Of a stretch of 64,000 nt of DNA, positions 6,443 to 53,300 are shown one piece after another; positions within the stretch are counted from its first letter, which is position 1, and every line of letters begins with the position of its first letter. Below the pieces are notes generated by a model. It searched no databases. It saw nothing but the letters and a program-made list of their open reading frames with translations, and was not told where the DNA came from. The translations under genes were made by a program, and so were the position numbers. The stretch comes from Corella eumyota. Lineage: Eukaryota; Chordata; Ascidiacea; Phlebobranchia; Corellidae. The stretch lies in NCBI GenBank assembly GCA_963082875.1, contig OY720098.1, positions 1,426,001-1,490,000 on the forward strand, given 5' to 3'.

Positions 6443-7243
6443 GGTTCAAGGGTGAATATGGGACAAGTATAAGCTATCTGTTAACACTGGGTTTAAGGGT
6501 GAATATGGGATAAATATAAGCTATCTGTTAACACTGGGTCCAAGGGTGAATATGAGACAAATATAAGCTATCTGTTAACACTGGGTCCAAGGGTAAATAT
6601 GGGACAAGTATAAGCTATCTGTTAACACTGGGTCCAAGGGTAAATATGGGACATGTACAAGCTATATGTTAACACTGGGTTCAAGGGTAAATATGGGGCA
6701 TGTATAAGCTATCTGTTAACATAGGGTTTAAGGGTGAATATGGGACATGTATAAGCAATCTGTTAACATAGGGTTTAAGGGTAAATATTGGACATGAATA
6801 AGCTATCTGTTAACACTGGGTTCAAGAGTAAATGTGGGACATGTATAAGCTATCTGTTAACACTGGGTCCAAGGGTGAATATGGGGAATGTATAAGCTAT
6901 CTGTTAACACCGGGTTCAAGGGTGAATATGGGACAAGTATAAGCTATCTGTTAACACTGGGTTCAAGGGTTAATATTGGACATGTATAAGCTATCTGTTA
7001 ACACTGGGTTCAAGGGTAAATATGGGATATGTATAAGCTACCTGTTAACACTGGGTTCAAGGGTGAATATGGGACATGTATAAGCTATCTGTTAACACTG
7101 GGTTCAAAGGTGAATATGGGACATGTACAAGCTATATGTTAACACTGGATTCAATGGTAAATATGGGATATGTATAAGCTATCTGTTAACACTGGGTTCA
7201 AGAGTGAATATGGGACATGTATAAGCTATCTGTCTGTTAATAC
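6443..7243. repeat. 47-bp minisatellite, about 17 units, related to a SINE tail
   Basis: A unit of 47 bp repeats about seventeen times with only scattered point differences. Each unit contains AAGCTATCTGTTAACACTGG followed by GTTCAAGGGTGAATATGGGAC. The same word order (AAGCTATCTGTAAAC, GGGCTCAAGGGCGAATA) occurs in the 80-bp tail unit of the tRNA-derived SINE family at 50.1-50.8 kb. The minisatellite therefore looks like a truncated SINE tail that was amplified in tandem. It lies about 600 bp upstream of the mir-100-like hairpin. Confidence 0.9.
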
Positions 7244-8829: not shown

Positions 8830-9766
8830 GTAAAATGGAATGTTGTTTTTATTGTGTCACATTTTGTGTCGCAAAACTACAAGTTTTGCCGTAAAATTTT
8901 TTTTTTTTTTGTTAAAAATAAGGGTAATATGCATTTTTTTGTGTGTAACTTACCCTAAGAAATGTTAAAATATTTAGTTTGAACTTTACTAATTAGGCTA
9001 CCTCCTATTATTATTATAGTTAATTTTTAAAAGTTTTTTTTCATTTTTATTTCTTTACTTTTATTCATTTTTTGATTTTTATGATCCTTTATTAATATTT
9101 AATACTCTTTTTAATTTTAATAAACATTAAATTTACCTTCAGTATAAAATTATTTATTTTCAATTATATTGGAACAAAATATAATATAACAAAGAATATA
9201 TGTGATAATATAGTGATTTAAAATCTAATGCACACAAAAAATAAGGCGATAATTCAATTAAAATGCGCTTCAACACAAAAGTATTATCACCAATAAAATA
9301 TTTACACAACCAGCCAACTATTGTCGCCATTTTTATTTTAATGGCAATGCAGTAAAATATTTACTTTATATTCAACAAGATATGTTGTGATTAAACAATG
9401 GTATTCTGTTACAGAACAAATATCACGTGATATGTTTACTTTATTGTTCAACTGACAGACTACTAGTTTTGTAAAACAGAAATAAAAATCTAAGATTAAC
9501 TTGATTTTTAAGCCTTTAAAAGAATTAAAATTTGTTCTTTTAAATAGAATTAGGTTAGTAACAAAATATAACACCAATCTTAATAATTAAAACTGCATTT
9601 AATTTACATTTTTCGCTGTATTTTTGATTATCTAGCCGACTGACAAAAAATGTCGCTGTTAAGCCAGTCAGCAAAGTTAGGCTACTCGCAAAATCAATAT
9701 TTACATTTTTATCAGGTGCTGTTGCAAGGTTAAACCAATAAATAAAGTTTAATCTCTGCATACATT
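8830..9766. other. Convergent spacer between the microRNA locus and kinase copy 1
   Basis: This spacer has no gene. The left part is T-rich. From about 9150 it becomes the downstream flank of kinase copy 1, because the same sequence recurs beyond copies 2 and 3 (from about 13190 and 18950). The plus-strand microRNA transcript and the minus-strand kinase transcript must both end in or near it. Confidence 0.6.
9360..9470 (-). promoter_or_regulatory. Conserved 3'-flank block of kinase copy 1 with CACGTG
   Basis: This block (GTGATTAAACAATGG... TATCACGTGATATGTTTA) is repeated downstream of all four kinase copies. CACGTG is at 9424-9429, 338 bp beyond the stop codon. It is either conserved 3' UTR or a downstream regulatory element. 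The function is inferred only from conservation. Confidence 0.45.
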
Positions 9767-12696
9767 TTACATTAACATAAGAAGCGCAGTTAGTGCCTCC
9801 ATATTAGGTGCTGAGCTAATCTTTTTGATTGATTCTTCTAACCCCCTAATAACATCTCGCTTAGTCGCCTCGCTGATATCTTCTGCTGTTTGAAACGAAA
9901 CAATGGCGATCTTTAAACTATTTTCCGCCTCCACAATATTGCCGTTAGACTTCTCTGCATTTGCAAGCATGACATAACACTGGCCAAAAGCTGATAACTT
10001 TGCAGCATTTTCACCGAAAGTATCGATGCGAATTTTAATGGCCTGGGTTAATGCGTTAATGGCTTCATCGTACTCTTTCACGTACACATGGCACCTTCCC
10101 AGATAGAATAGACAGTACGAACTAGCTTGGGCATAAATTCCTGTGGTCCCATGGCTTGCGGTCTTAACGGACATTAGAAGAGCTTGCAGAAGAGGAATCG
10201 CGACGGATTTAATGCCGGGTTCCATATCTTGCTTGTAGAGAATAATAACTAGGTCCTCGATGGTGCTTCCTATGCTGATTAAGCTTCTTAACTTTGTATC
10301 GGGATCTTCAATGTCGAAACAGATTCTGGACGCTGTTCGCAACATATGAAGAGCTGGCCTGTTTTGATGTTTCTGTGTAAGCTTACCAGCTACTTCTACC
10401 AAACTGCACACAACATCTTTGCAAGACTCTGGATTGATTTTAACTTCCTTTAGGTAGTTTACCAAACGATCACATACTTTGGCAGATTTTTTTAAATCGT
10501 TAACTCTAAGAAGCACACAGATCATAACAACATCTGTCCTGACTTTTTGAGCGGGATCTATATGATATGTTAGTATAAGATTTGCAGTGGTGCAGTAGTT
10601 TAGGGACATTATCTCATAATTTTAAGGCCCTACACAAATTACTGGTGTAACAATATGGTTTTTACCTTTCTGTTTGCCAATAACGGGGGCCTGGACAGCA
10701 GTAACTTGATTTAAAGGAATAACTGGGGTTTTTAGAGGTTCAGCTTTTACAGGTTTGTCTGAAAAAACAAAATTTGGGAACATTATTTTATAAATTTGCT
10801 GGCTAACATGTTAAATAGGCACTACTACAGCATTAGAACATGTTATTTACTCTTTTCTTTGTTAGCTTTAGGTGCCGGGACTGCATTAACTACGTATGAC
10901 TGGCTAATTGGGTCTGCATGAGGTTCAGGTTTTACAGGTTCATCTAAGAAAAAAAATATATTGTAAAAATAAATATTTCATAATTATGCTGGCTAACATT
11001 ACAAATAGGCACCACTTGAAAGTTAAATACCGTTCTTATTAGTAGCTATAGGTGCCTGGACAAGAGGGAATTCGTTTGACTGGCTTATAGGGGGTGTTAA
11101 AGGTTCCGCTTTTGGTTGAACTAGGAAAGAATATTAAACATTAATCTGTTATTAGCAACCTACTTAATTCCTCGCCTTTGATTTTTCGTGATAAACAGAA
11201 AAAAAAAATAATAATTTAGGCTTAAAATATAGAAAATATAAACCACTAGCTTCACAATTTTAACTTACTGTCAAAAACGAAGTCCGGTGGATTTAGACGC
11301 GACAAGGGTACACACTGTTTTTTGTCAATCTTCGGATGAATAAGAGCCATTCCCCTAAGAGTGTCAGCTACACTAAGAAGCACATTGGTAAAATCTAGAT
11401 CGTCGATCATCTTGCTAAGCTCATCTCTAACTTGAACCATGTTGGGGCGCTTTGTAGGATTTCCGTCCCAGCATTTCTTCATTTCAATCTCTAAAGCTTC
11501 GATCAATTTCACGTCGCCTAATTTTCGCTTTGTTTTCAAATCTCTTTTAAGGTTATCCACTTCATCCAAATCGGGTCTGGCACCCCGACAAACAGCTCTC
11601 ACAAATGCATCAACATTGGCTACTACATGCATTTGTACGGGATTTTCCCGGGTTAAGACCATGTGTAGAATGATACCATAGCTGTATACATCTTGCTGTG
11701 GATGTAATTTTAGAAAAGGGTTTTTCAAACGCTCTGGAGCCGCATATGGAATTGTAAATTCGCAATCTTCGCTTGAATTTGCGTTTTTTGGTGCCACGCT
11801 GCAAGTAGAGATTTCTGCTCCTCCAAAATCAGCAATTTTACAATGAAGATCTCTGGTCAAAACCACATTATCAGGTTTCATATCTCCATGTGTAAGTTTT
11901 CTGGTACTGTACAAATTATGAAGAAAAGCAAGACCATCAGCAACTTCGAACCCTATTCTTAAACGAAGACAAGGATCAAGATTTGCTTTCTCGTTAAGAA
12001 GAAGGTCTCCCATACTGCCTCCAGGAAGGTATTCCATAATAATCCCCATTGATCTTTTCCATTTTGACCAGCCGAAAATACGAAGAACATTTGCATGGTT
12101 GATCTTGTTTAATGTATCCAATTCTCGTTTAATTCTGTTTCAAGTAGATAAATTGTCCCGTTAAAAAGTTTTTTTATGCTTTAACAACACAGCGTTAGTA
12201 TAATTTAAACTACAACAACAGATTTTTAAACATATTTTTACGTAAAGAATCGGTCTTAAAGCTTCTCCTACTTACTTGTCTTCTGGGTTATCACCACCCA
12301 TAGCAAAGCATTTAATGGCAACTGCACCTAGAGCATTATGGAAAGCAAGTCTAACTGTCCCAAACGATCCACTTCCAAGATTTCCTGTGTCTTCATCAGC
12401 TACGCATTGTAGCTCACTCGGAGGGTAGATTCGTACCTAAAAATGTTCACATTTTAATTTATCAAGGTTAAACTTTATTTAAGGTTGACATAAAATGTTA
12501 GTTATAGCCCTATATAAACATTATAATAAGTGTTGTACTTAAATTATAAATGTTTATAAAAAGGTTCAAAAAACAAAGTTATGATTTTTATATTAAATGA
12601 ATAATATTAAAAGAATTTGTATAAAAATTTTTAACTTACAATATAAAACAAGATTTAATATTTATTTATAAAAGGTTTTACCTGTCTTTCAGTCAT
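9767..12696 (-). CDS. Kinase-linker-TPR protein, copy 1 (non-RD TKL-like kinase)
   Basis: Seven coding exons on the minus strand: 12682-12696, 12276-12436, 11269-12134, 11031-11120, 10851-10943, 10666-10758 and 9767-10557. They join in frame to give about 702 residues. The 15-nt first exon encodes MTERQ. The kinase domain (about 20-320) has glycine loop GSGSFG (26-31), VAIK with Lys47, HGDMKPDN with catalytic Asp143, DFG at 161 and an APE-like AAPERL. The Arg of HRD is replaced by Gly, a non-RD form known in IRAK1 and other innate-immunity-linked TKL kinases. Three mini-exons encode a Pro/Glu-rich linker with VQAP motifs. The last exon encodes about 260 residues of helical repeats with two clear TPR-like units (LGRCHVYVKEYDEAI; GQCYVMLANAEKSNG). 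It should be a catalytically competent cytosolic signalling kinase. The substrate is unknown, and the immune role is inference. Confidence 0.85.
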
Positions 12697-13399
12697 GGCT
12701 TTAACTTAAATTTTTCTTGCTTATTCTATACACTTTTTAATTTTTATATTTATTTTTAGCCTAAAATTGCAGACAACAATTTACCAGTTAAACAGTAAAA
12801 AATAGGCTATAAAATCTAGCTAACAATACTATTTAAATCAACATATTTAGTACTGCCTTTAAATTTCAGATTTTCGCAAATGTGCAAACTGTTTAGCGTG
12901 TTTTTTATTTACCAAGATGTAGTAACTGTTTGCTGAATAAAGAAGTGTCAGACTGTTAATTGTTTGCCAAAACCCTTTTTTGGTTTGCTGTGTAATCAGT
13001 CGATAAATTTAATTTGCATTGAAGTTTAATATCAAAGTCTATAATGTGTTAAAACTTTATTATCAAAATAGTATTTTCACAATAAACTTAAATTTAAAAC
13101 TCTCTAAATACACTTCATTAAATGGAAAAAAAACATTTAAATTTGGTGTTTTTATTTAAAAAAGTTAATTGTTCATTTACAACCACATTAAAACAAAATA
13201 TGTTAGAATGTAATAACAAAGATACATAATAATAATATAATCAGTGATTTGGTTAAAATAAAACTATATATAGTAAGTTATAGTGTTATGTACAGAAAAT
13301 AATAAGGCGATAATTCAATTAAAATGCGCTTCAACACGAAGTGTTATCACAAATAAAATATTTACACAACCAGGCAACTATTGTCGCCATTTCTATTTT

Positions 13400-13530
13400 A
13401 ATGGCAATGCAGTAAAATATTAACTTTATATTCAACAAGATATGTTGTGATTTAACAATGGTATTCTGTTACGGACCAATAATCACGTGACATGTTTACT
13501 GTCATTTAGTTGACGGGTTGCTAGTTTTGT
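13400..13530 (-). promoter_or_regulatory. Conserved 3'-flank block of kinase copy 2 with CACGTG
   Basis: This is the copy-2 version of the block downstream of every kinase gene in the array. AATCACGTGACATGTTTA includes CACGTG at 13484-13489, 323 bp beyond the stop codon. The surrounding sequence is nearly identical to the flanks of copies 1 and 3. Confidence 0.45.
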
Positions 13531-13811
13531 AGAACAGAGATAAAAAAGCAGATTAAATTGATTTTTAAGTCTTTAAAAGAATTGAAGTTTGTTCTTTTAA
13601 ATAAAATAAATTAGAAACAAAATATAACACCAATCTTAATAATTAAAACTGCATTTAATTTACATTTTTCGCTGTATGTTTGATTATCTAGCCGACTGAC
13701 AAAAAATGTCGCTGTTAAGCCAGTCAGCAAAGTTAGGCTACTCGCAAAATCAATATTTACATTTTTATCAGGTGCTGTTGCAAGATTTAATCAATAAAAT
13801 TTACACACCTT

Positions 13812-16800
13812 TTACATTAACATAAGAAGCGCAATTAGTGCTTCCATATTAGGTGCTGAGCTAATCTTTTTGATTGATTCTTCTAACCCCCTAATAACAT
13901 CTCGTTTAGTCTCCTCGCTGATATCTTCTGCTCTTTGAAACGAAACAATGGCGATCTTTAAACTATTTTCCGCCTCCACAATATTGCCGTTAGACTTCTC
14001 TGCATTTGCAAGCATAACATAACACTGACCAAGAGCTGATAACTTTGCAGCATTTTCACCAAAAGCATTGATGCGAATTTTAATGGCCTGACTTAATGCG
14101 TTGATTGCCTCATCGTACTCTTTCACGTACACATGGCACCTTCCCAGATAGAAAAGACAAAACGAAGTAGCCTGAGCAAAAATTCCTGTGCTTTCATAGC
14201 TTGTGGTCTTCATGGCATGTAAAAGAAAATGTAAGACTGGGATTGCAATGGATTTGATGCCGGGTTCCTTATCCTGATTGTAGAGAATGATAATTAGATC
14301 TTCTATGGCGTTTCCTATGCTGTTTAAGCTTCTTAACTTTGTATCGGGATCTTCAATGTCGAAACAGATGCTAGACGCTGTTTGCAACATATGAAGAGCT
14401 GGCCTGTTTTGATGTTTTTGTGTAAGCTTACCAGCAACTTCCACCAAACTGCACACAACATCTTTGCAAGACTCCGGACTGATTTTGGCTTCCTTTAAGT
14501 AGTTCACCAAACGATCACATACTTGAGCAGATTTTTTTAAATCGTTAACTCTAAGAAGCACACAGATCATAACAACATCTGTCCTGACTTTTTGAACGGG
14601 ATCTATATAAAATAATAGTATTAGATTTGCAAAGTAGTGTAATAGTTTGGAAACATTATCTTATGATTTTTAAGAAAACTTTTTACCTTTTTGCTTGCCA
14701 ATAACGGGTGCCCGGACAGCAGTAACTTGATTTGACAGAATAACTGGGGTTTTTTGAGGTTTGGCTTTTACAGGTTGATCTTCTTTGTTAGCTTCAGGTG
14801 CCTTAACTGCAGTAACTTTGTTTGGCTGGATAATTGGGTCTGTAGGAGGTTTAGCTTCTACAGGTTTATCTGAAAGAAAAGAAAATTAGGAACGATATTT
14901 TATAATTTTGCTGAAGATTTTAGGTAGGCACTACTAAAATATACTTATTAAGGTATAAGTTCACCTTTCTGAATGCAAACTACGGATGCCTGGACAGCGA
15001 TAACTTGATTTGACGGGCTTACTGGGTGTGTTGAAAATTGATCTAAAAAGAAAAAAAAAACAATATGGGACATCATTTTAAGAGTATGCAGGCTAACATT
15101 TAAAATATGCACTACTACAACATTAAGATACGTTATTCACCATTTTTATTGCTCGCTTTAGGAGCCTGGACTGCATTAACTTCGTATGACTGGCTAATTG
15201 GGTCTGCATGAGGTTCAGGTTTTACAGGTTCATCTAAGGGAGAAAATAATTTCATGATTTTGCTGGCTAACATTACAAATAGGCACCACTTGAAAGTTAA
15301 ATACCGTTCTCATTAGTAGCTAAAGGTGTCTGGACAAGGGGGAATTCGTTTGACTGGCTCATTTGGGGTGTTGTAGGTTCCGCGTTTGGTTGATCTAAGA
15401 AAGAAAAATTGTTTTAGGGACATTACTTTATAAATTTGCTGGCTAACATTTAAAAAATGCCCTATTGCAGCATTAGAACATGTCATTTACCCTTTTCTTT
15501 GTTAGCTTCAGGTGCCTGAATTGCAGTAACTTTGTTGGACTGGGTAATGGGGTCTGTAGGAGGTTCAGCTTTCATAGGTTTATCTGAAACATTAAAAAAA
15601 ATTAGGGACGTTTTTTATGATTTTGCTGTAGAGTTTAAATAAGCACTACTGAAACCTTTATTAAGGTGAGCGTAATTTACCGTTTTGATTGCAAACTTCG
15701 GGTGCCTTAACAGCAGGAACTTGATTTGATGGGCTTACAGTGTCTGTTGGAGATTCATCTAAAAATATCAAAATAGGGTAATATTTTATAAAATTGCAGG
15801 AAAACATTACAAATAAGCCACACTACAACATTAGAAAAGGTTATTTACCATTTTCACTGCTAGCCACAGGTGCCTGGACATCAGTAACTTCGTTTGACTG
15901 GCTATTTGGGTCTGTATGAAGATCAGCTTTTACAGGTTCATCTTGAAAAAAAAGAAAACTTATTTTAGGGACATTGTTCCGTAATTTTGCTGCAAACATC
16001 ATATAGGCACAACTAAAACCTACTTAATAAAGTAGGAGTTATTTACCTTTCTGATTGCTAACCACAGGTGCCTGGACGGCGGTAACTTGATTTGACGAGC
16101 TTACTGGATCTGTTGTAGGTTGATCTAAAAGAACAAAAAACAAAATAGGATATTATTTTATGAAATTTCAGGATAACATTTTAAATAGGCACTATTACAA
16201 CATCAAAACATGTCATTTACCTTTTTCTTTGTTAGCTTCAGGTGCCTGAACTGCAGTAACTTCGTTGGACTGAATAATTGGGTCTGTAGGAGGTTCAGCT
16301 TCTACAGGTTTATCTGAAAGAAATACAAATTTAGGGACGATATTTTATGATTTTGCTGGAGATTTTAAATTGGCACTACTGAAACCTTTTATTAAGGTAT
16401 GCGTAATTTACCGTTTTGATTGCAAACTTCGGGTTCCTGGACAACAGTAACTGACGGGCTTACAGAGTCTGTTGGAGGTTCGTCTAAAAAGAAAAAAAAA
16501 TAGAATATTTTATGAAATTGCAGGATAACATTACAAATAAGCCACACTACAACATCAGAAAAGGGTATTCACCTTTTTCACTGCTTGCTTCAGGTGCCTG
16601 GACATCAGTAACTTCGTTTGACTGGCTATTCGGGTCTGTATGAAGCTCAGCTTTTACAGGTTCATCTAAGAAAAAGAAATATTGTAATGATGCATATTCA
16701 ATGATTTTGCTGGCTAAAATTTTAAATAGGGACCACATTTAAGTATGAGTTATTTACCTTTCTCATTAGTAGCTAAAGGTGCCTGGACAAGAGGGAACTT

Positions 16801-18461
16801 GTTTAACTGGCTTATAGGGGGTGTTAAAGGTTCCACTTTTGGTTGAACTAGGAAAAAAAAATATTGAAATGCCAATTAAATATTAAACAGTAATATGTTA
16901 ATCACAACCTACTTAATTTCTCACCCTTGATTATTCGTGATAAACAGAAAAAAAAATTAAATAAAAAAATATAAACACATTTTTAACTTACTATCAAAGA
17001 CGAAGTCCGGTGGATTTAGACGCGACAAGGGTACACACTGTTTTTTGTCAATCTTGGGATGAATAAGAGCCATTCCCCTAAGAGTGTCAGCTACACTAAG
17101 AAGTACATTGGTAAAATCTAGATCGTCGATCATCTTGCTTAGCTCATCTCTAACTTCAACCATAGTGGGTCGCTTTGTAGGATTTCCGTCCCAGCATTTC
17201 TTCATTTCAACCTCTAAAGCTTCGATCAATTTCACGTCGCCTAATTTTCGCTCTGTTTTCAAGTCTTCTTTGAGGTTATCTATTTCATCCAAATCGGGTC
17301 TGACGCCTCGATTAACAGCTCTTGTAATAACTTCTGTATTAGCCACCATAGGCATTGGTGCTGGATTTTCCCGGGTTAAGACCATGTGTAGAATGATACC
17401 ATAGCTGTATACATCTTGCCGTGGATGTAATTTCAGAAATGGGTTATCCAATCGCTCTGGTGCCGCATATAAAAGCGTATATTCCAATCCTTTTTTGGAA
17501 TTTACCTTTTTTGGTGCCACGCTGCAAGTAGAGATTTCTGCTCCTCCAAAATCAGCAATTTTACAACGAAGATCCCTAGTCAAAACCACATTATCAGGTT
17601 TCATATCTCCATGTGTAAGTTTTCTGGTACTGTACAAATTATGAAGAAAAGCAAGACCATCAGCAACTTCGAATGACATTCTTACACGAAGACAAGGATC
17701 AAGATTTGCTTTTTTATTAAGAAGAAGGCTTCCCATACTGCCTCCAGGAAGGTACTCCATAATAATTCCCATTGACCTTTTCCATTTTGACCAGCCGAAA
17801 ATACGAAGAACATTTGCATGGTTGATCTTGTTTAATGTATCCAATTCTCGTTTAATTCTGTTTCAAGTAGATCAAGTAAAAAGTTTTTTATGCTTTAACA
17901 ATACAGCGTTAGTATAGTTTAAACTACAACAACAGGTTTTTAAACATATTTTTACGTAAATAATCGGTCTTAAAGCTTCTCCAACTTACTTATCTTCTGG
18001 GTTATCACCACCCATAGCAAAGCACTTAATGGCAACTGCACCTAGAGCATTATGAAAAGCGAGTCTAACTGTCCCAAACGATCCACTTCCAAGATTTCCT
18101 GTGTCTTCATCAACCACACATTGTAGCTCATTCGGAGGGTAGATTCGGACCTAAGAAATTATTTTAAAGTTTATTAAAAGTTTAGAGAATATCAGGGTGT
18201 GTAGTTTGCGCAATGTTAGCATTTTGGCAGAATGTTTAAAATAGTTTTTTAATATTATGGCTATCATATTTTTCCGGATAAAAATTTACGCAATTTTTAA
18301 TTTTTCGAAGTTAAACTAATCTAAAGTTGATATAAAAGATTATTTTTAGCCCTTGATTAACCTGAAAATAGGTGTTATACCTTAATTATAAATGTATATA
18401 AAAAACAGCATTTAAAGATTCAATATTTAATTATAGAAGGTTTTACCTGTCTGTGAGTCAT
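13812..18461 (-). CDS. Kinase-linker-TPR protein, copy 2 (expanded linker)
   Basis: Sixteen coding exons are inferred: 18447-18461 (MTHRQ), 17990-18150, 16992-17857, twelve linker exons between 16847 and 14687, and 13812-14602. All junctions keep frame and give about 988 residues. The kinase part has GSGSFG, VAIK, HGDMKPDN and DFGGAE, as in copy 1. The TPR exon is 791 nt, the same length as in copies 1 and 3. The linker is about 378 residues, against about 30 in copies 3 and 4 and about 92 in copy 1, so the extra length comes entirely from mini-exon multiplication. The upstream flank is nearly identical to that of copy 1, pointing to a recent duplication. The protein should be an active non-RD kinase with an unusually long, flexible, Pro/Glu/Thr-rich tether to its TPR domain. 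The real set of linker exons used in mRNA may vary. Confidence 0.82.
14687..16847 (-). repeat. Twelve-exon linker array, three copies of a four-exon unit (about 720 bp)
   Basis: Linker exons in transcription order: 16758-16847, 16573-16665, 16412-16483, 16221-16313, 16047-16124, 15849-15941, 15681-15758, 15491-15583, 15305-15394, 15141-15233, 14965-15042 and 14687-14869. Each is a multiple of three and flanked by phase-1 introns, so gain, loss or skipping never breaks the frame. By sequence they fall into types a (90 nt), b (93), c (72-78), d (93) and e, in the order a-b-c-d, c'-b-c-d, a-b-c'-(d+e). Exons of the same type lie 708-730 bp apart. The final exon is 183 nt and joins a d module to an e module with no intron between them. 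Confidence 0.85.
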
Positions 18462-19159
18462 GGCTTCAACTTAACTTGAATTTTCTTGGTAATCCTAAAA
18501 ACCTATTATATTTTTATATTAGGTTTTTGCCTAAAATTGCAGACAAAACAATTTAATAGTTACACAGTAAAGTTTAGGCTATAAAATCTAGCTAACAATA
18601 CTATTTAAATAAGCATACTGCCCTTCCATATTTTAGATTTTCGCAAATGTGCAAACTGTTTAGCGTGTTTTTTATTTACCAAGATGTAGTTAACTGTTTG
18701 CTGAATAAAGAAGTGTCAGACTGTTAATTGTTTGCCAAAACCCTTTTTTGGTTTGCTGTGTAATTAGTCGATAACTTTAATTTGCATTGAAGTTTAATAT
18801 CAAAGTCTTTAATGTGTTAAAACTTTATTATCAAAATAGTATTTTCACAATAAACTTAAATTTAAAACTCTCTAAATACACTTTATTAAATAGAAAAAAC
18901 ATTTAAATTTAGTGTTTTTATTTAAAAAAGGTTCATTTACAACCACATTAAAACAAAATATGTTAGAATGTAATAACAAAGATACATAATAATAATATAA
19001 TCAGTGATTTGGTTAAAGTAAAACTATATATAGTAATTTATAGTGTTATGTACAGAGAGAAAAAGGGCGATAATTCAATTAAAATGCGCTTCAACACGAA
19101 GTGTTATCACAAATAAAATATTTACACAACCAGCCAACTATTGTCGCCATTTTTATTTT

Positions 19160-19290
19160 AATGGCAATGCAGTAAAATATCAACTTTATATTCAACAAGA
19201 TAAGTTGTGATTAAACAATTGTATTCTGTTACGGAACAAATATCACGTGATATGTTTACTTTATTGTTCAACTGACAGACTACTAGTTTT
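19160..19290 (-). promoter_or_regulatory. Conserved 3'-flank block of kinase copy 3 with CACGTG
   Basis: This is the copy-3 version of the downstream block. TATCACGTGATATGTTTA includes CACGTG at 19244-19249, 329 bp beyond the stop. It is closer in sequence to copy 1 than to copy 2 over the following 80 bp. Confidence 0.45.
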
Positions 19291-19577
19291 GTAAAACAGA
19301 AATAAAAATCTAAGATTAACTTGATTTTTAAGCCTTTAAAAGAATTAAAATTTGTTCGTTTAGTTTCAATTCGGTTTGTAACACCTTAATATACCAACCT
19401 ACACAATTAAATTGGCTTTTATTTATTTTTTTAGTGTATTTTTGATTATATTTCTAACTGACAAAAATGTCGCCGTTTAGGCAGTCAGCAAAGTTAAAGG
19501 GAACTCGTTATCAGTCAATATTTACATTTATTAAAAGTCAGATGGCAGAATAAACCCATATGGGGTCATGTTTTATT

Positions 19578-22177
19578 TTACAATAACATTAGAAGCGCAA
19601 TTAGTGCTTCCATGTTAGGTGCTGAGTGCAGCTTCTTAATTGACTCTTCTAACCCTTTAATAACATCTCGTTTGGTCTCCGCGCTCATATCCTCTGCCTT
19701 CAAAAACGAAGCAATGGCGGCCCTTAAACTTTTTTCTGCCTCTACGAGATCACCTTTAGCCTTTTCTGCATTTGCAAGCATAACATAGCACTGGCCAAGC
19801 GCTGATAATTTTCCAGCGGCAGCACCAAATGTTTTAGTACGAATGTTAATTGCAGAGCCTAATGCACTTATGGCCTTATCGAACTCTTTCACGTACACAT
19901 GGCACCTTCCTAGATAGTATAAGCACAGCGAAACGGCTTGCGTGTAAATCTGAGTATTGCCATCGCTCGCTGTCTTAATAGACATTAGAAGAGCTTGTAG
20001 AAGCGGAATTGCGACGGATTTGATGCCGGGTTCCATATCTTGCTTGTAAAGAATGATAACTAGGTCTTCGATGGCATTTCCCACACTGTTTAAACTCTTC
20101 AACTTTGTATCAGAATCTGGAATAAGGAGACAGATCTTGGACGCTCTTGCCAGCATATGAAGAGATGACTTGTTTTGCAATCTTCGTGTGAGCTTACCAG
20201 CAGTTTCTACCAAGCAGCAGACAACCTCTTTACACACTTGTGGTTTCAAGGTAGTTCGGTCAATGTAAGCTGTCAAGCGATCACAAACTAATGCACAATC
20301 TGTTAAGTTGTTGGCTTTAAGCAAAATAGAAACCAGAACAACATCTGCCTTAATCTTTTTAACCGGATCTGTATAACGAATTGATAATATGATGAATACC
20401 CAACCATAGAATTTACCTTTAACATAGCGTTACAATACAGTTGACTAGGATAAAACATAGAAATAAGTTACCGGTGTTACTGCTAACAACAGTTGCGTGG
20501 ACAACTGTAGGTTGGTTTGACGGGCTTGCTGGGGATGCTTTGGGTTGGGGCTTCGCAGTTTGATCTATAACATAGAACGTAAGAATTTTTAAACTAAAAT
20601 TCTCAAAATGCAATATTTTTTAAAGAAAAAAATTAGAAGAGATGTTATCGTATTTGTGCATAACTTTAACTTACCGCCAATGACGAATGCGGGTGGACTT
20701 AGACGTGACAAAGGTACACACTGGTTTTTGTCGATCTTTGGTTGAATGATTGCCATTCCTTTAAGAGTGTCAGCCACACTAAGAAGGATTTTCGTAATAT
20801 CCAGATCGTCTATCATCTTGCTTAGCTCATCTCTAACTTGAACCATGGTGGGGCGTTTTGTATGATCCCCGTTCCAGCATTTCTTCATTTCAATCTCTAA
20901 TGCTTCGATTAACTTAGCGTCAGCCAAATTTCTCTTTGTTTTAAGATCCCTTTTTAGGTCGTCAACTTCCTCCAAACCGGGTCTGGCGCCTTCTTGAACA
21001 GCTTTAGAAAAGACCTCAGTATTAGCTACCATATGCATTTGTACGGGATAGTCTCGGGTTAGAATCATATGTAGAATGATACCATAGCTGTACACATCTT
21101 GCTGTGGGTGTAATCTCAGAAATGGGTTTTTTAAACGCTCTGGTGCCGCATATAAAAGGGTATATTCGGAACCCGTGTTGGACCTAAGGTTTCTTGGGGC
21201 TGTGCTGCAAGTAGAAATTTCGGCTCCTCCAAAATCAGCAATTTTACAATGAAGATCTTTTGTTAAAACCACATTATCAGGTTTCATATCTCCATGTGTA
21301 AGCTTTCTGGTACTGTACAAATTATGGAGAAAAGCAAGACCGTCAGCAACTTCGTATGACATTCTAACACGAAGACAAGGATCAAGATTGGCCTCTGGTT
21401 TAAGAAGAAGAGTTCCCATACTGCCTCCAGGAAGGTACTCCATGATAATTCCCATGGAATTCGGCCATTTAGCCCAACCATAAATACGAAGAACATTTGC
21501 ATGGTTGATCTTGTTTAAAGTTTCCAATTCTCTTTTAATTCTGCAGAAAAAGGTAATTTAAGATTTGAATAACAAAGGTTTAATCTTGGCCTTACTCGTA
21601 GAAGCAAAAGCGCATTAAACGCTGATTCAAATAACTCACTTATCCTCTGGGTTGTTGGCTCCTACAGGAAAGCATTTAATGGCAACTGAGCCTAGGACAT
21701 TATGGAAAGCAAGTCGAACTGTCCCGAACGATCCACTTCCGAGATTCCCTGTGTCTTCATCAACTACACATTGTAGCTCACCAGCTGGATATAATCGTAC
21801 CTAAGATATGTTTATTATTTTATTAAACGTTTGGGACAATAACATGAGTTTAAATTTAAAAAAAAAAAAAAAATCTCTTAACATAAGCTTTAAATTAATC
21901 ACATTTTTTTATATAGTTAATATTTCAATTTATTTTTGCTTCTATATTATCACAAACCAAACAAAAACACTTTTTAATATGCCCAACTCAAAGCCTAAGG
22001 TCGGGTTAATAAACGAACAATAAAAGTTCAATAAAGAGGTAATTTAATACTCGGTCGGAAAACAAAAGTATGTACATGTATTAAGCCTACAAACACACTT
22101 AAACTACTAGTTAAGTATTTTTCAAAGTTATATTTTAATTTAAACCATATAAAGTTTTTTACCTGTCGATCTGCCAT
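19578..22177 (-). CDS. Kinase-linker-TPR protein, copy 3
   Basis: Five coding exons: 22163-22177 (MADRQ), 21640-21800, 20675-21540, 20472-20564 and 19578-20368, giving about 641 residues in frame. Exon lengths 15, 161, 866 and 791 match copies 1 and 2 exactly. The kinase keeps GSGSFG, VAIK, HGDMKPDN, DFGGAE and AAPERL. There is a single linker exon of 93 nt (DQTAKPQPKASPASPSNQ...), rich in Pro, Ser and Lys. The TPR-like exon has LGRCHVYVKEFDKAI and GQCYVMLANAEKAKG. Protein divergence from copies 1 and 2 is modest in the kinase and larger in the first half of the TPR exon. This is the short form of the family; a cytosolic signalling kinase is the expected role, with partners unknown. Confidence 0.85.
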
Positions 22178-23165: not shown

Positions 23166-23474
23166 GGACAATACTAAAGTACGGGATGCGGGATAGTGCG
23201 GGGCCGTATATAAACGTTAACGAAAATTCGCGTAATGCGGGACGGAACGGTATTTTTGTACTTTACTGCGGGATAATTGCGGTGTTTGCCTAAAAGGCTA
23301 AGGGATGATGCGGATTAGCTATAAAGGTCGACGAATGATGCAAAATCAACTATAAAGCACAAGGGAAGATTAGGGTAGGGTATAAAAATTCCGCCCTTTC
23401 TGCATTCAGCGATTTTTTGTTAACGTTTATATATGGCCCCGCACTATCCCGCATCCCGTACTTTAGTATTGTCC
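23166..23474. mobile_element. hAT-like MITE, 309 bp, with perfect 8-bp target duplication
   Basis: The element starts GGACAATACTAAAGTACGGG and ends with the inverted form CCCGTACTTTAGTATTGTCC. The inverted repeats run for about 55 bp with one mismatch (CGTATATAA against CATATATAA). GTTAAAGA is duplicated exactly at 23158-23165 and 23475-23482. An 8-bp duplication with such ends is typical of the hAT superfamily. The element has no coding capacity, so it is a nonautonomous MITE. The nearly perfect arms and intact duplication suggest recent insertion, between kinase copies 3 and 4. Its interior is G+C-richer than the host DNA. Confidence 0.93.
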
Positions 23475-24120: not shown

Positions 24121-26621
24121 TTATTTTAATAACATAAGAAGTGAAATTAGTGCTTCCACATTAGGTGCTAAGTGAAGCTTTTTAATTGATTCTTCTAACC
24201 CCCTGATAACATCTCGTTTGGTCTCCTCACTTATATCTTCTGCTTTTTGAAACGAAGCAATGGCGGCCCTTAAATTTTTTTCTGTTTTTACAAGATCACC
24301 TTTAGCCTTCTCTGCATTTGCAAGCATAACATAACACTGACCAAGCACTGCCAACTTTGCAGCATTTTCACCGAAAGTCTCTATGCGGATTTTGATCGCT
24401 GAGCTTAAAGCATCAATGGCCTCATCGTACTCCTTCACGTACACATGGCACCTTCCCAGATAGTACAAGGACAGCGAAAGAACTTGGGCATAAATCTGTT
24501 TTTTACCATTGCCTATAGCCTTAATAGTTGTAAGAAGAGCTTGCAGAAGCGGAATCGCAGTAGATTTTATGCCAGGTTCCAACTTTTGTCTGTGGATAAT
24601 GAAAACTAGATCTTGAATGGCATTTCCTATGCTGATTAAGCTTCTTAACTTTGTGTCAGAATCTAAAATAAGCAGACAGATCTTGAACGCCCCCGCCAGC
24701 AATTGAAGGGACGAATTGTTTTGCAATTTTTGTGTGAGCTTACCAGCAGTTTCTACCAAGCAACAGACAACTTCTTTGCAAAGTTTAGTATCAAAAGTAA
24801 CTTCGGTTAAATATTCACTTAGAGCTTCGCACACTGTGGAAGATTCTTCTAGTTTTCCTTCGTTTAACAAAACACGAACCTGGACCACATCTGTTCTAAC
24901 TTTTTGAACTGAATTTGCTGTAAAATATATAAATTATTAAGCAATGAACTTTGGTCAGCACTTGATTTGAATTGCGACGAATGCTTTTATACAAAATGTA
25001 TCTTTAAAACAACCCAATTACGATTAAAAAAAAATGATTTACCTGGAATTTTGCTAATTACGGTTGCAATGGAGTCCTGTGGTGATAAGCTTGCTTTGAA
25101 TGGTGAAGGATTGGGTTTCACAGTTTGATCTAAATAGCAATGGAAAATAAGTTTAATTTAAATATACGAAGGCCTGGCCTATAAGCTATTTTTTGTCCGG
25201 GTTTAAGGGTTTTTAAAAAATCAAAATCAAAAAACTTTTAGCATACCCCTTGTTACGAAGTCGGGTGGTTTTAGACGCGACAGAGAAATACACTGATTAT
25301 TGTCGATCGTTGGTTGAATTAGTGCCATCTCTTTTAGCGTGTCTGCTACACTAAGCAAAACCGCAAATATGTCCATATTGTTCAACATCTTGCTTAGCTG
25401 ATCTCTGACTTGAACCATGGTAGGGCGTTTTTTATGATTCCCATTCCAGCATTTTTTCATTTCAATCTCTAATGCCTCAATCAATTTGACATCTTCAAGT
25501 CGGCCCTTTTTTTTCAGATCTTTTTTTGAGTCATTTACTTTTTTTGTATCAGGCCTTTTACCTTCCCCAACAGCTTTACGAAATATCATAGAGTCCATGT
25601 TAGCGGGAACGGGATCATCTCGGGTTAAAATCATGTGTAAAATGACACCATAACTATAAACGTCTTGTTGTGGGTGCAACATTACAAAGGGATTTTTTAT
25701 ACGCTCAGGAGCAGTATATGGAAGAGTGTGTTCTGCCACATTTGTTGAAACTTTGTTTGTAGAAAACGTGCTACAGGAAGAGATATCTGCTCCTCCAAAA
25801 TCAGCAATTTTACAATGAAGATCGTTAGTTAAAAGCACATTTTCAGGTTTCATATCTCCATGTGTAAGCCTTTTGGTACTGTTCAAATTATGGAGAAAAG
25901 CAAGACCATCAGCAACTTCAAACGACATTCTTACACGAAGACTGAAATCTAGACTTGCATTTTCAAAAAGCAGAAGGCTTTTCAGACTACCTCCGGGAAG
26001 GTACTCCATGATAATTCCCATGGAATTCGGCCATTTAGTCCAACCATAAATACGAAGAACATTAGCATGGTTGATCTTGTTTAAAGTCTCCAATTCTTTT
26101 TTAATTCTGTCAAAAATAGTTTATTTATATTGGATTTGGGATTTAGAAAATGATATATGGGCATTTGCACAATTTTTAACTTAAAACTATAACCCTATAA
26201 AATTAAACCACGTAAAAAATAGGACTATTGTTTTTTTTAACTCAAGTCTTGTTGTTACACACTACCAATAAAACACTAACACAACCCTTCTTCTTACTTT
26301 TTTTCGGCGTTGTTGGCTAGTACAGAAAAGCATTTAATGGCAACTGAGCCTAGGACATTATGAAAAGCGAGTCTAACCATTCCATATGATCCACTTCCAA
26401 GATTTCCTGTGTCTTCATCAACCACACATTGTAACTCATCTGCTGGGTATAGTCTTACCTAAAAATTGTAGCAAATGTTGTTTGGTAAAAACTTATTTAC
26501 ACTTTAGCACATCTTATTTTTATGTATCAAAATGTTAATCTTTCTTATACATATGTTCTGGGTTATTGCGATTTCTTAAATAAAACCTATTAAGTTAGGG
26601 TCTTACCTCTTTAGTTTCCAT
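24121..26621 (-). CDS. Kinase-linker-TPR protein, copy 4 (most diverged)
   Basis: Five coding exons: 26607-26621 (METKE), 26298-26458, 25247-26106, 25043-25129 and 24121-24917, giving about 639 residues in frame. The kinase exon is 860 nt, two codons shorter than in the other copies, and the TPR exon is six nt longer. Motifs are GSGSYG (Tyr in the loop), VAIK, HGDMKPEN and DFGGAD, all compatible with catalysis. The single linker exon encodes DQTVKPNPSPFKAS.... The TPR exon has LGRCHVYVKEYDEAID and the family C-terminus MEALI-LLMLL in slightly altered form. This copy heads the array in the direction of transcription and is the most divergent, so it may be the oldest member or have a distinct role. 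Confidence 0.83.
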
Positions 26622-44261: not shown

Positions 44262-44550
44262 GTAGTGTGGTATACTGCTCTAGGCACTTTATTATGAGCC
44301 GAGCCAAAACGTTTCGGGTTTGAGCCGCACCAATGCCACACTATTTGCCTTTGAGTCTGGTGTTTACAGTTAGCTTAAACACACCAAAAGGTTTCGGGTT
44401 CGGGCCGCACCAATGCAACTTTATTCGTTCTTGGGCCCGGTGTTTACGGTTAGCTTAAACACACCAAAAGGTTTCAGGTTTAAACCGCACCAATGACACA
44501 TTATTCGCCCTTACGCCCTGCGTTTACAAATAGCTCAAAAACCCATCTTT
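44262..44550 (+). repeat. SINE-2 copy with three tail units
   Basis: The head AGTGTGGTATACTGCTCTAGGC leads into TTTCGGGTTTGAGCCGCACC. Two further units of about 80 bp follow, each with GCCGCACCAATG, TTATTCG or TATTTGCC, and TAGCTTAAACACACC. Each unit carries its own B-box-like motif. This is a plus-strand relative of the larger array at 50.1 kb. Confidence 0.82.
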
Positions 44551-47325: not shown

Positions 47326-50300
47326 TCACATATCTAACACTTTCTGAGCGTTACTAAGGGCCTGGGACATGTCAACGACCTGAGTCCGGGCGTGGATTTC
47401 AAATTGTGGCGGAAAATTTTGGCTCAATCTCCGGCGTTGTTGGTTCTCGGCCCCGTTGTAGGAAAATCGTTGATGCGACATTTTCGGGGGCGTTTTTTGG
47501 TACTCAGAAGCTAAATCGATTGTATTACTACGACTTAGAGTACGTGAATTAGTATTATTATACCGTAAATTATTATATCTAGACGTATGGGCATGAGTTT
47601 CGTTCGGTATTTGGTAATTCTCGTTAGAATGGTAACTATAATCCGGCCATCTAAAATCTCCACCCAATGACTGAGATTTTCTTACAACATTTTGGTTCGA
47701 GTTATATTTTTGCACGAAAGCAGTATCATGTGACCAATTTTTGTTCATTTGATTTTCCATATTGTGTTTATTTGTCACATTGGGCCTCCAGTTGTAATGA
47801 TAAGAGTCGTAATGACTCGTGGACGCGTAATTTGATTTCCCTGCTACGTAGTTCAGGTTTTCTTCGTAGTTTTGGGACGGAAAAGCATTATTAGAAGCTG
47901 GGTTAAAATTTAAGTTATTCGGTTCTTGATAATTTGCGACGAACGCAGAATTTTTCGACATTTCGTTGTTGTTCATTTTTCCTCGAAATTTTTGCAGCTC
48001 GCCTTTCACGGAGTCGTTGAACCGTAACGAGCTCGGTTGCGAGGTGATGACGTGGTCAATATTTGTGCCGGTCACGCTTGACTCCATTTGCCCGCTTCTA
48101 GACGCGAACATATCGTCCAGGAATGTCTCGGAATTTTTCGTCTCGTCCCCGAGTTGATTCGGTACCGCAAATTCGTCCCCGCGAGGCTGTGAATCACTTC
48201 CGCCTGCTTCCAGCGCGTTAAACTCCGCGGTTTCTTGCACATTTTCCCGACAAATTTTACTGAGACTAGAATTTAAATCAGTGACGTCATCACTATCTAA
48301 TTTTATGTCGGTCTCGGTCTGTTGATTTTCGAGTTTTTCAGAATCCATGACGTCATCATTATTTTCGGGCAAATTTTTTTGTCGATTTTTTTTCTTACTT
48401 TCCGGGTCGCTCGCTCCGCCTTCTTCGTCGTCGCTTTCTTTTATGGCGTCATCGTCTACGTCATCATCGCATGACGTATCAGCGTCCGAGTCTTTGTTTT
48501 TATTGGATTGTTGTTGACGCTTGTGTTTCATTCTGCGGTTTTGAAACCAGACTTTCACCTGCCTGCAAAAAAAATGTAAAATTATATAAAAATAATTGTT
48601 AAAAACTGTTGGGTGTTTAATCAAATTAATTGTTAAATACCTCATTTTTAATATAAACAACATATGTATAATATACTTGTAGTTTTTAGTAAATATTTGT
48701 AAAAAATAAGACCAAAAATTTTATTGAATAACTGTTAGAAATTTTAGATTAAAATTAACGAAAACTAAATTTTTTTCGAAACACCATGACATACGATGCT
48801 TTTTATACACTACAGTTGCGGTTTTTGTGGTGCGTACTTATAAAAGTTTTGGCCAAAATGTTAAAAAAATTTATAAAATAATTGTTTAAGTTTTATATTG
48901 AAAGTAAAAAAAAAAATATTTTTTGTAACGCTTTACAATGGTGTTATTAGATAGCGACCTTTAAGCTTTTTAACGTTAATATTTATAAGAAATTTGTCAA
49001 AATGTTTATGTTAAATAAACCCAATACTACTAGGTTTGATAACCAGTGAAGGCAGTTTGAAAAAAAATTCTTATAAATTCAAAAAATGTTACACTAAGAC
49101 AAAAAAGGTGGTTATTTCTAAACGAAATTTTAAAAGTTAGTTTTATATTAAAGAAGTAATGGCTAGGACAATTAATTTCAATTTTTTAACGACATTCCTT
49201 ATATAGAAAGTCGTTTAAGAAATATTAAAAATAAAAATTGGCGCCAAAACAAACATTTTGTTAATATTTAATTCTCGAAATTTTATTGTTATTAATTAAC
49301 TAAAAACGTGATCGGTTTTGTTGTAAATATAAAAGTTGAAATGATTGATATTTTGATTTGGGAATTGTCGAAAATGATTGATTTGTATTGACATGAGTCA
49401 CCAAAAAAAAATCAAAACATAAAAAAAATTTTTAATTTTATTTGGAAAAATAACTTTTTTAAAAATCTTTAAAAATATATGGCAAATTTAATGGCTCAAA
49501 AAACGTGAAGTTATATTTCAAATGTTTGTTCAATTATAATTTTTAATTATTTAAAAGTGTTAAAATTTATTTAATTCTGACAATTTATAAAAATAAAGAA
49601 AAGTAATAGTAAAAAATGTAAATTACATCTTCCATATACTTTAAAAAAACATCGATAAAAGTTTTAAAATCTTAACTAGAAAATAGCAATTAGTATATTA
49701 TGAATTACAAAAAGGCAAATATTCTTTAGTAACTGGGTAAATAATAGTTTTTTAACAACAAAAACGTTAATTAAACAATACAGTTTTAACTACAACGAAA
49801 AACACAAAAATTGACTCTTTTTACCTTTCCGTTAACTCCAACCCAGTCGCAATCTCGATCCTCCTAGGTCGACATAAATATTTGTTGTAATGGAATTCCT
49901 TTTCTAACTCAAGTAGTTGGGTGTTAGTGTATGCTGTTCTTAATCTTCTGGATGCACCACTAGGACGGTTACCTAAAGTTATAAACAACCAATTTATGTT
50001 CAATTGCGATATATATTTAGTTGTTTTTTTTTTCGTATCACCTTAAGGTGATAGGTTTTTATATTAAATTGGGAAAGAGAGTGCTGTTATGACGTGTTTA
50101 AGCTATCTGTAAACGCCGGGCTGAAGAGCAAAAAATGTGGCATTGGTGCGGCTTTGACTCAAAACCTTTTGGTGTGTTTTAGCTATCAAGAAAAGCTGGG
50201 CTTAAGGGTGAATAGTGTGGCATTGGTGCGGCTCGAACCCAAAACCTTTTGGTGTGTTTAAGCTATCAGTAAACACCAGGCTTAAGGGTGAATAGTGTAG

Positions 50301-53300
50301 CATTGGTGCGAGTCGAACCCGAAACCTTTTGGTGTGTTTAAGCTATCAGTAAACACCAGGCTTAAGGGTGAATAGTGTGGCATTGGTGCGGCTCGAACCC
50401 GAAACCTTTTGGTGTGTTTAAGCTATCTGTAAACACCAGGCTCAAGGGCGAATAGTGTGGCATTGGTGCGACTCGAACCCTAAACCTTTTGGTGTGTTTA
50501 AGCTATCAGTAAACGCCAGGCTTAAGGACGAATAATGTGGCATTGGTGCGGCTCGAACCCTAAACCTTTTGATGTGTTTAAGCTATCTGTAAACGCCGGG
50601 GCCAAGGGCGAAAAATGTGGCATTGGTGCGACTTGAACCCGAAACCTTTTGGGGTGTTTTAGTTATCTGTAAATGTCGGGCTTAGACGGGGGAAATGTGG
50701 CATTGGTGCGGCTCAAACCTAAAACCTTATGGCTTGTAATTTTATGCCATGACCGGTATAACACACTTTGCTGTATAAATAAGAAAAATTAATATATTTT
50801 AATACAGAAAATTATAAAAATTAAATTTGAAAATTTAGGTAAAAATTTTTAAATATTTTTAATCCCGATTTAAAAGTTTTTATTTAAAAATTTAATTTAT
50901 TTTTTTTAATTTTTTCAGTATAAAAATAAGGGTTTTGTTAGTTTAAAAGCAAAGTTTTTGGTAAAATGGGTTTTAACGTGCTCATCATGGTATTTAAAAT
51001 TTGGAAACTTACTAAAAATATCGACACAGAAATAACTGTCAGATGATCGTCAAAATTTAAAAAAATTTTTTGCTTAAACTTTAAATATTTTGGTTAATAA
51101 TAAAAATTGGCAACCGACCTAACTTAACAATTAAGCTAACATTATCTTACCACGTGACCGTGTGCAGCGGTGCGTTAACAGCATCAACACAAACTAACAA
51201 GCGATGTTTTAACAACAAAAATATTTATTGTGGTTAAAGTTAAGTTAAAGTTTTGAAGAAAGATTCTGTTGTAATCCAGTCAAAAATTGTTTTAAATTAT
51301 TTGTAAATTTGTTTTCTTATAAATTGGTGTAATAACTTTTAAAGGACGATTTTGTTGTAAATTGGTCAAAAATTGTTTTTAAAATTTTTGTAAATTCATG
51401 TTTTATAATTTGGTCAATTTTTTTATGGCATAAATTACTTTAAAAGATGTTTTTGGTAAGCTGTTAATAAATTTGTAATAAGGTTTAAAGGACGATTTTG
51501 TTGTAAATTAGTCGAAAAATAGTCCTTTAATTTGGGTAAAATATGTATTTTTTAAATTGGTCAATTTTTCAAAATATTTTTGGTTATTGTTGCCTTAAAG
51601 GCTCAAGTTTTTTAAAACAATTAATAAATTTAAATTTTTGTTGCCGTTTAAGTTAAAATTTTTAAAGTCATCTTTTTATGTTCTGTTTTAAAAGGCTTTT
51701 TATGTTGTTAACCTTCAAGTTCAAGTTTTTTTTAACTTGGTTACGTCAGCTGTTAAAATATTTAAAACAAAAGTTTTTCAATTTAAGGACCTTATTTTTT
51801 ATTATTTTTTTTCATTTTGGTTTTTCGCAAATTGATAACAGTAAATAATAAATAGACATACAATTAATATTACAACAATGCGACGGAAAAAAATGACAAA
51901 ATCAATTTAATGATTTAAAACATGCCAAAAGTAATAATGTTTACATAAAGATTTTAAGTATGTTATGGCATGGTCACCAAACCCAAACTTAATTAAATGT
52001 CTTTGATATAATAATATTTGCGCGTTTTCAAAAAGTTTTGCATTTTGTAAAAGTTTTTGTTATTGATGATTCGGTAAAATTTCAAAGTAAATTCTTTGTA
52101 ATATATTACCAAGTTAGAAATATAAAAATTGAGTAATTATTTATTTAATATAAATATAAAACAATATTATTAATCAAGTATGTAAAAAAATATTAAATCA
52201 TCGTTGAAAATGATTTTATTTTATTCGATCATAATTTCAAATTTTTGGATGTCGTTTTTAATATGATCGAGTAGACGTTTTGACTGTTATGGGACTTGTA
52301 GTGCCACGCGCCACGCGTAAGACTTGTGATTACCACTTAAGTGCACTTACATGACAATGACGTTTCGAGTGTTGTTGTAAATTGTCATTAATTATAATTA
52401 GTTTAATTTCCGTTGTATTTTTTAATTATTTTTGATTTATTTATTTTTTATCTTAAACAATTAAATTTATTTTGATTTATTTTCATAAAATTTAAAATTT
52501 TTTTTAATTTAAAAATATTTTGACATTAATATTTATTATATTGATATTTATCATTTTATTATTAATATTTATTAATGCTTAAAAAAATTTCCAAAATAAT
52601 TAATCTAAAATGTTTTTTTAATTTTAAAGTTTATTATCGTCAAAATTTAAAATTTTTTAATTTTTTGTTTGGGTCAAAATAAACAAATTTTAAACAATTT
52701 TCTAAGCAAAACATTCTTTGTATTGTTGTAATCTGGTTCTTAGGTCAACAGGCTTCTTGTTAATTTGATTTGGGTAATAAAGTTAAGAAGATTATAAAGG
52801 GGATAATCTAGGATCAGTTAACTTAACTGTGACCGTATAAGTTCGACACAAACCTTGATTGACGTTTCCAATTTGTTACAAAAATTCGAGGTTTTAAGGA
52901 AATTGTTTGACTATGAATGTAACTGTTTGGTTAAAATTGGTATTTTTTATTTATATTTTTAAAATTGGTATTTTTTTTGGTTTTTTAAAGTTGGTATTTT
53001 TTTTGCTTTTCTAAAGTTGGTATTTTTTTTGGTTTTCTAAAGTTGGTATTTTTTTTAATTTTCTAAAATTAGTATTTTTTTTGGTTTTCTAAAATTGGTA
53101 TTTTTTTTGGTTTTCTAATATTGGTATTTTTTTTTGGTTTTCTAAAACTGGTATTTTTTTTGGCTTTCTAAAATTGATTTTTTATGCTTTATTAAAAGTA
53201 ACAAAAAAGTCATATACAGCTAATTATTATACATAGATGCGGTTAAAAAATGACAAAATAAAATTTATTATTTTATGTAAATTCGTAAAATTGCTGTTAT

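Follow-up and report, generated by a model that had tools for sequence, protein, structure and literature searches.

A 64,000-nt stretch of DNA (hereafter the window) was analysed and found to contain a tandem row of four minus-strand genes, each encoding a RIPK-like kinase, a linker and a TPR domain. The linker of gene 2 is encoded by a nested tandem-exon array, which probably specifies a fast-evolving disordered tether whose length has been altered by in-frame unequal recombination. The gene models and their parts are:

9767..12696, minus strand: gene 1, spliced model of 702 aa with three linker exons
11120-11031, 10943-10851 and 10758-10666, minus strand: gene 1 linker exons, a, b/d chimera and e, respectively
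13812..18461, minus strand: gene 2, spliced model of 988 aa, open throughout, with a 12-exon linker
16992..18461, minus strand: gene 2 exons 1-3 (18461-18447, 18150-17990, 17857-16992), kinase domain
13812..14602, minus strand: gene 2 last exon, TPR-type all-helical domain
19578..22177, minus strand: gene 3, 641 aa, single linker exon 20564-20472
24121..26621, minus strand: gene 4, 639 aa, single linker exon 25129-25043
12436-11269, 18150-16992, 21800-20675 and 26458-25247, minus strand: kinase exons with HGD in the catalytic loop, genes 1, 2, 3 and 4, respectively

In the spliced model, exons 1-3 of gene 2, its twelve linker exons and its last exon join into one uninterrupted predicted protein of 988 residues. 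The linker accounts for 378 of these residues; that of gene 1 has 92 and those of genes 3 and 4 about 30. A first-pass annotation had counted three linker exons in gene 1 and one each in genes 3 and 4, and these numbers were recovered. It had also described twelve exons in gene 2, all of which were re-found on the minus strand at 16847-14687, in an array of 2.2 kb. In transcript order they read a-b-c-d, c'-b-c-d, a-b-c'-(d+e):

16758..16847, minus strand: linker exon 1, type a, 90 nt
16573..16665, minus strand: linker exon 2, type b, 93 nt
16412..16483, minus strand: linker exon 3, type c, 72 nt
16221..16313, minus strand: linker exon 4, type d, 93 nt
16047..16124, minus strand: linker exon 5, type c', 78 nt, in the slot expected for a
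15849..15941, minus strand: linker exon 6, type b, 93 nt
15681..15758, minus strand: linker exon 7, type c, 78 nt
15491..15583, minus strand: linker exon 8, type d, 93 nt
15305..15394, minus strand: linker exon 9, type a, 90 nt
15141..15233, minus strand: linker exon 10, type b, 93 nt, nearest to the b of gene 1
14965..15042, minus strand: linker exon 11, type c', 78 nt
14687..14869, minus strand: linker exon 12, fused d+e, 183 nt

All twelve exons (72-183 nt) have AG/GT borders and an open frame and, as had been claimed, are phase 1-1 and divisible by three. Because every linker exon is phase 1-1, the gain or loss of an exon stays in frame. The fused exon 12 has lost the d/e intron plus one codon, and the fusion is in frame. 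Differences in exon length are multiples of three, and the introns show free length variation and contain in-frame stops. These features bear on the idea that many of the linker exons are mostly skipped relics and that the mature linker is as short as in genes 3 and 4. Constraint is weak, dN/dS being near 1 in several comparisons, so that some exons may be under little selection, and the introns are tiny; however, 12 of 12 exons have kept splice signals, phase and open frame at 10-25% divergence, with indels in multiples of three, and we consider this reading very unlikely.

Self-comparison of the array confirmed the announced periodicity of about 720 bp, with off-diagonals at 711 bp (76% over 1393) and 1453 bp (79% over 654). 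The 690-750 bp band held 225 exact 10-mer pairs, whereas 100 dinucleotide shuffles used as control gave 0.3 such pairs on average and never more than 3. Further off-diagonals were seen at 352 bp (69% over 1770), 182 bp (63% over 910) and 1077 bp (69%), and exact 10-mer counts in every one of these bands exceeded all shuffles. Periods of about 180 and 355 bp beside the one of about 720 bp indicate that the repeat is nested, with units of one, two and four exons. Same-type exons are spaced by 724 and 708 bp for b, 725 and 716 bp for c (c' counted as c) and 730 and 714 bp for d, which is the 708-730 bp range proposed earlier; the two a exons lie 1453 bp apart. Since the 711 and 1453 bp off-diagonals span exons and introns alike, since same-type introns match and since the phase is symmetric 1-1 throughout, the proposal that a multi-exon block was repeatedly duplicated within one gene, with compatible phases, is supported.

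The description of the array as a four-exon unit present three times could be retained only as a loose fit to three blocks. The highest same-type identities are those of b-c-d in blocks 1 and 2, where the exons are 94, 88 and 90% identical and the introns are also alike (i2/i6 91%, i3/i7 89%). The two copies of this recent duplicate are:

16207..16665, minus strand: b-c-d repeat copy 1, introns included, 90.3% identical to copy 2 (K2P 0.104)
15477..15941, minus strand: b-c-d repeat copy 2, introns included

The remaining slot is occupied by a different, more ancient exon, a in blocks 1 and 3 and c' in block 2. As this fourth slot differs between blocks 1 and 2, the young repeat consists of three exons (b-c-d), not four. 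Block 3 is older, its a-b part being about twice as diverged. A clean a-b-c-d triplication, after which gene conversion replaced the block 2 copy of a by c', would agree with the regular block spacing of 708-730 bp and with the c' tract having both edges in introns. Such a later conversion predicts c' copies younger than, or as old as, the block 1/block 2 duplicate, yet they are older (K2P 0.21-0.28, over a short tract with wide intervals, against 0.104), which leaves this scenario rather unlikely. Tandem repeats are easily misassembled, and an assembly artefact was also considered. The copies differ by at least 10% in DNA, however, the longest exact repeat inside the array measures 40-44 bp and gene 1 has an independent related array, so that an artefact is extremely improbable.

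The relative ages of the blocks and genes were estimated from K2P distances. Between blocks 1 and 2, b-c-d differs by 0.104 (CI 0.074-0.137), which matches the value of 0.103 obtained for genes 1 and 2 from introns and 5' flank. Blocks 1 and 3 differ by 0.200 in their a and b units (CI 0.149-0.257; introns alone 0.217), and at least 99.8% of bootstraps placed these distances above that of the gene 1/gene 2 split. Divergence is lower for the d units (0.136-0.166). A rate check inside the array gave values resembling those of the flanks, namely 0.107 for the a exon of gene 1 plus intron versus exon 9 plus intron, and 0.133 for e versus e. In the exon tree, exon 10 (b) groups with the b of gene 1 (93/93) and not with exons 2 and 6, and in the tree built with introns exon 9 (a) groups with the a of gene 1 (83/81) while the copies of blocks 1 and 2 fall outside. 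The block 1/block 3 distance, greater than the gene split, and the pairing of exons 9 and 10 with gene 1 point to at least two block lineages being, most likely, already present before genes 1 and 2 separated. All linker exons of genes 1 and 2 form one clade with respect to genes 3 and 4 (95/95), inside which types a, d and e each receive support as a clade; they thus descend from a single exon of the gene that was ancestral to both. These ages could be distorted by gene conversion, which has probably occurred between genes 1 and 2 in places.

The first-pass annotation had reasoned that gene 1 is short and that gene 2 therefore grew. Under this hypothesis, the a-b-e arrangement of gene 1 is ancestral and only gene 2 expanded, through duplications of a four-exon block that postdate the separation of the two genes. 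The exon numbers (three in gene 1, one in genes 3 and 4) go in this direction, and the b-c-d duplicate and the gene split are of similar age, which makes some growth of gene 2 possible. The inference is nevertheless not supported, in view of the block 1/block 3 distance (0.200 against 0.103), of the pairing of exon 10 with the b of gene 1 without exons 2 and 6, and of the second linker exon of gene 1, which is a b/d mosaic; we regard growth restricted to gene 2 as quite unlikely. The a-b-e label of gene 1 is correct for the number of exons, but its "b" matches b at the start and d at the end.

When the gene 1 linker was aligned with a copying model as pieces of the gene 2 array, the start of a was drawn from exon 1, exons 9-10 supplied the remainder of a together with the beginning of b, and the end of b with its intron came from d (exon 8), followed by e. 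The first 65 nt of the gene 1 "b" exon are 98.5% identical to exon 10, and its 3' part and intron are nearest to exon 8. Among the sites separating exon 10 from exon 8, the first 14 are b-type and the following ones mostly d-type (ordered-switch permutation, p=0.005). On sequence grounds, an exon that starts as b and ends as d would be the mark of an internal deletion. Because the divergence of blocks 1 and 3 is older than the gene split and the second linker exon of gene 1 looks like a b/d fusion, the array of gene 1 was most likely longer in the past and has contracted. In the simplest reading, unequal recombination would have removed c' along with the adjoining ends of b and d. The b exon of gene 1 has probably also received a local gene conversion from block 3 (98.5% over 65 nt), which would not account for the older block 1/block 3 distance.

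Taken together, these data are best explained by an ancestral linker exon of phase 1-1 and about 90 nt, of which genes 3 and 4 still have a single copy. It was probably duplicated at three scales, in units of one exon with a period of about 180 bp, of two exons with a period of about 355 bp and of roughly four exons with a period of about 720 bp, likely through unequal recombination between similar exon-intron units. This growth from one exon would have occurred early, in the ancestor of genes 1 and 2. After the separation, gene 1 would have lost units, generating its b/d fused exon, and gene 2 holds the b-c-d duplicate, about as old as the split. A starting array such as a-b-c-d-a-b-c'-d-e fits the ages. 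Two exchanges may have followed, an older one that fused the introns downstream of d and upstream of c', and a younger one that added the second b-c-d. The mosaic path changes source in introns i4 and i5, as this two-exchange history predicts; diagnostic sites, which are too few or too mixed, did not give significant switches at i4 and i5 (p 0.25 and 0.80). Since the c' copies predate the b-c-d duplicate, the two-exchange history was preferred to the clean triplication. Traces in the array bear out the statement that linker length can change by duplication, or by loss; the exon phases would also permit a change by splicing. The steps of nested exon duplication can be read in order from 2.2 kb, including a likely contraction in the neighbouring gene, and they call for caution in that more copies in one gene need not mean growth in that gene, the ages favouring an older array and a shrunken gene.

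RIPK1/RIPK3-type kinases comprise a kinase domain, an unstructured middle and a C-terminal interaction domain, and the domain order of gene 2 is the same. Its kinase domain matched the Pfam kinase family (2e-35), and the top PDB matches were RIPK1 (6e-27) and RIPK2 (1e-24), nearest among solved structures, with BRI1 and LCK close behind. The four kinases have HGD in place of HRD in the catalytic loop and retain the VAIK lysine and DFG. Unlike RIPK1/RIPK3, gene 2 lacks a RHIM and its C-terminus is of the TPR type. The last exon alone matched Pfam TPR_2 (7e-7), and the encoded domain, predicted to be all-helical (pLDDT 75), has moderate scores against TPR families as well as TPR structures; no C-terminal death domain was found in this part of gene 2. 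A literature search for ascidian RIPK-TPR genes returned nothing relevant.

The gene 2 linker is rich in P, V, A, Q, E, S, K, N and T, with aromatics at 4 of 378 positions and 79% disorder-promoting residues, and falls on the disordered side of the Uversky line (0.405 vs 0.437). A Pfam search of the linker gave no match. Linker dN/dS was 0.40 for the young b-c-d copies and from 0.65 to above 1 for the others, the single values being imprecise on such short exons; between genes 1 and 2 it was 0.31 for the kinase exons and 0.23 for the TPR exons. High dN/dS in the linker, exon indels in threes and free introns with stops suggest that selection may favour an open, in-frame, disordered spacer over an exact sequence. 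Judged from composition and domain order, the linker would likely determine how far apart the kinase and the interaction domain lie and how flexibly they are connected. Alternatively, the repeat could be a short binding motif with a recurring V-Q-A-P core, copy number setting valency and not length. The core [VAI][VIAL][QKR][ATE][PS] indeed occurs nine times in the linker, with more VQAP-like cores in the a and b exons. Against a binding motif, RHIM ([IV]Q[IVLC]G core), TRAF2 and TRAF6 motifs are absent from the linker, as are Pfam matches, little of the core is left in genes 3 and 4 and dN/dS is near 1 in several comparisons; it appears rather unlikely, and the spacer role is preferred. We also put forward, as a speculative and quite unlikely proposal, that tethers of about 30, 92 and 378 residues form a natural length series still gaining and losing blocks, in which length, through germline copy number or splicing, would tune RIPK-like kinase signalling as a PEVK-like dial in an enzyme. 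Such close paralogues provide a test of the effect of linker length in a kinase.

The closest known cases, multi-exon triplications of the same kind, are those of nebulin and of the titin PEVK region; compared with titin, the array lies in another type of gene, its copies differ in age and its residue composition is not the same. The copies of the nebulin triplicate region are highly similar and encode actin-binding modules, whereas the gene 2 exons are diverged spacer units and its block copies, 76-90% identical, are not near-identical. Both systems have a multi-exon block three times inside one gene, which in nebulin (NEB) consists of eight exons over 10 kb each (PMC9109913). In titin (TTN), a nine-exon block of the PEVK region is present three times and its first two exons a fourth (PMC9142044), and the region underwent expansion and contraction among mammals (PMC6469411). 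The likeness to titin PEVK lies in many small exons for a P/E/V/K-rich spacer, a tandem triplicated multi-exon block with an incomplete extra copy, lineage-specific expansion and contraction and the same exon logic; in titin PEVK, exon use is varied by splicing. In contrast, gene 2 is a kinase-TPR gene and no muscle spring, its block measures 0.7 kb, its copies are older (10-25% diverged) and its P+E+V+K share is 43%. At 42.6% over the whole 378-aa linker (52% with A added), this share misses the default PEVK_Finder ratio of at least 0.54, which is scored per exon (PMC6469411).

Several other elements were observed in the window, whose short introns, AT-rich sequence and Hox2-like homeobox gene would point to an ascidian. 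The 5' flank of genes 1 and 2 also occurs downstream of gene 1, at 9208-9679 (88%), where it matches 19028-19496 and part of 12650-13735; this third copy is a trace of tandem duplication or of another, lost gene copy. Between genes 3 and 4, an element at 23166-23474 with 80-nt inverted repeats, 90% complementary and 149 nt apart, looks MITE-like. Three minisatellites share a core of about 40 bp:

6443-7233: 47-bp unit, 16.8 copies
44304-44539: 80-bp unit, 3 copies
50094-50732: 80-bp unit, 8 copies, inverted

The 80-bp unit contains a segment similar to a tRNA T-arm, and the tRNA scan called none there; Rfam and tRNA scans of the whole window likewise returned none. Finally, homeobox gene exons were observed on the minus strand at 47326-48720 and 58958-59815, 20-30 kb from the kinase array, with the end of the homeodomain visible, and this gene is likely to be Hox2.
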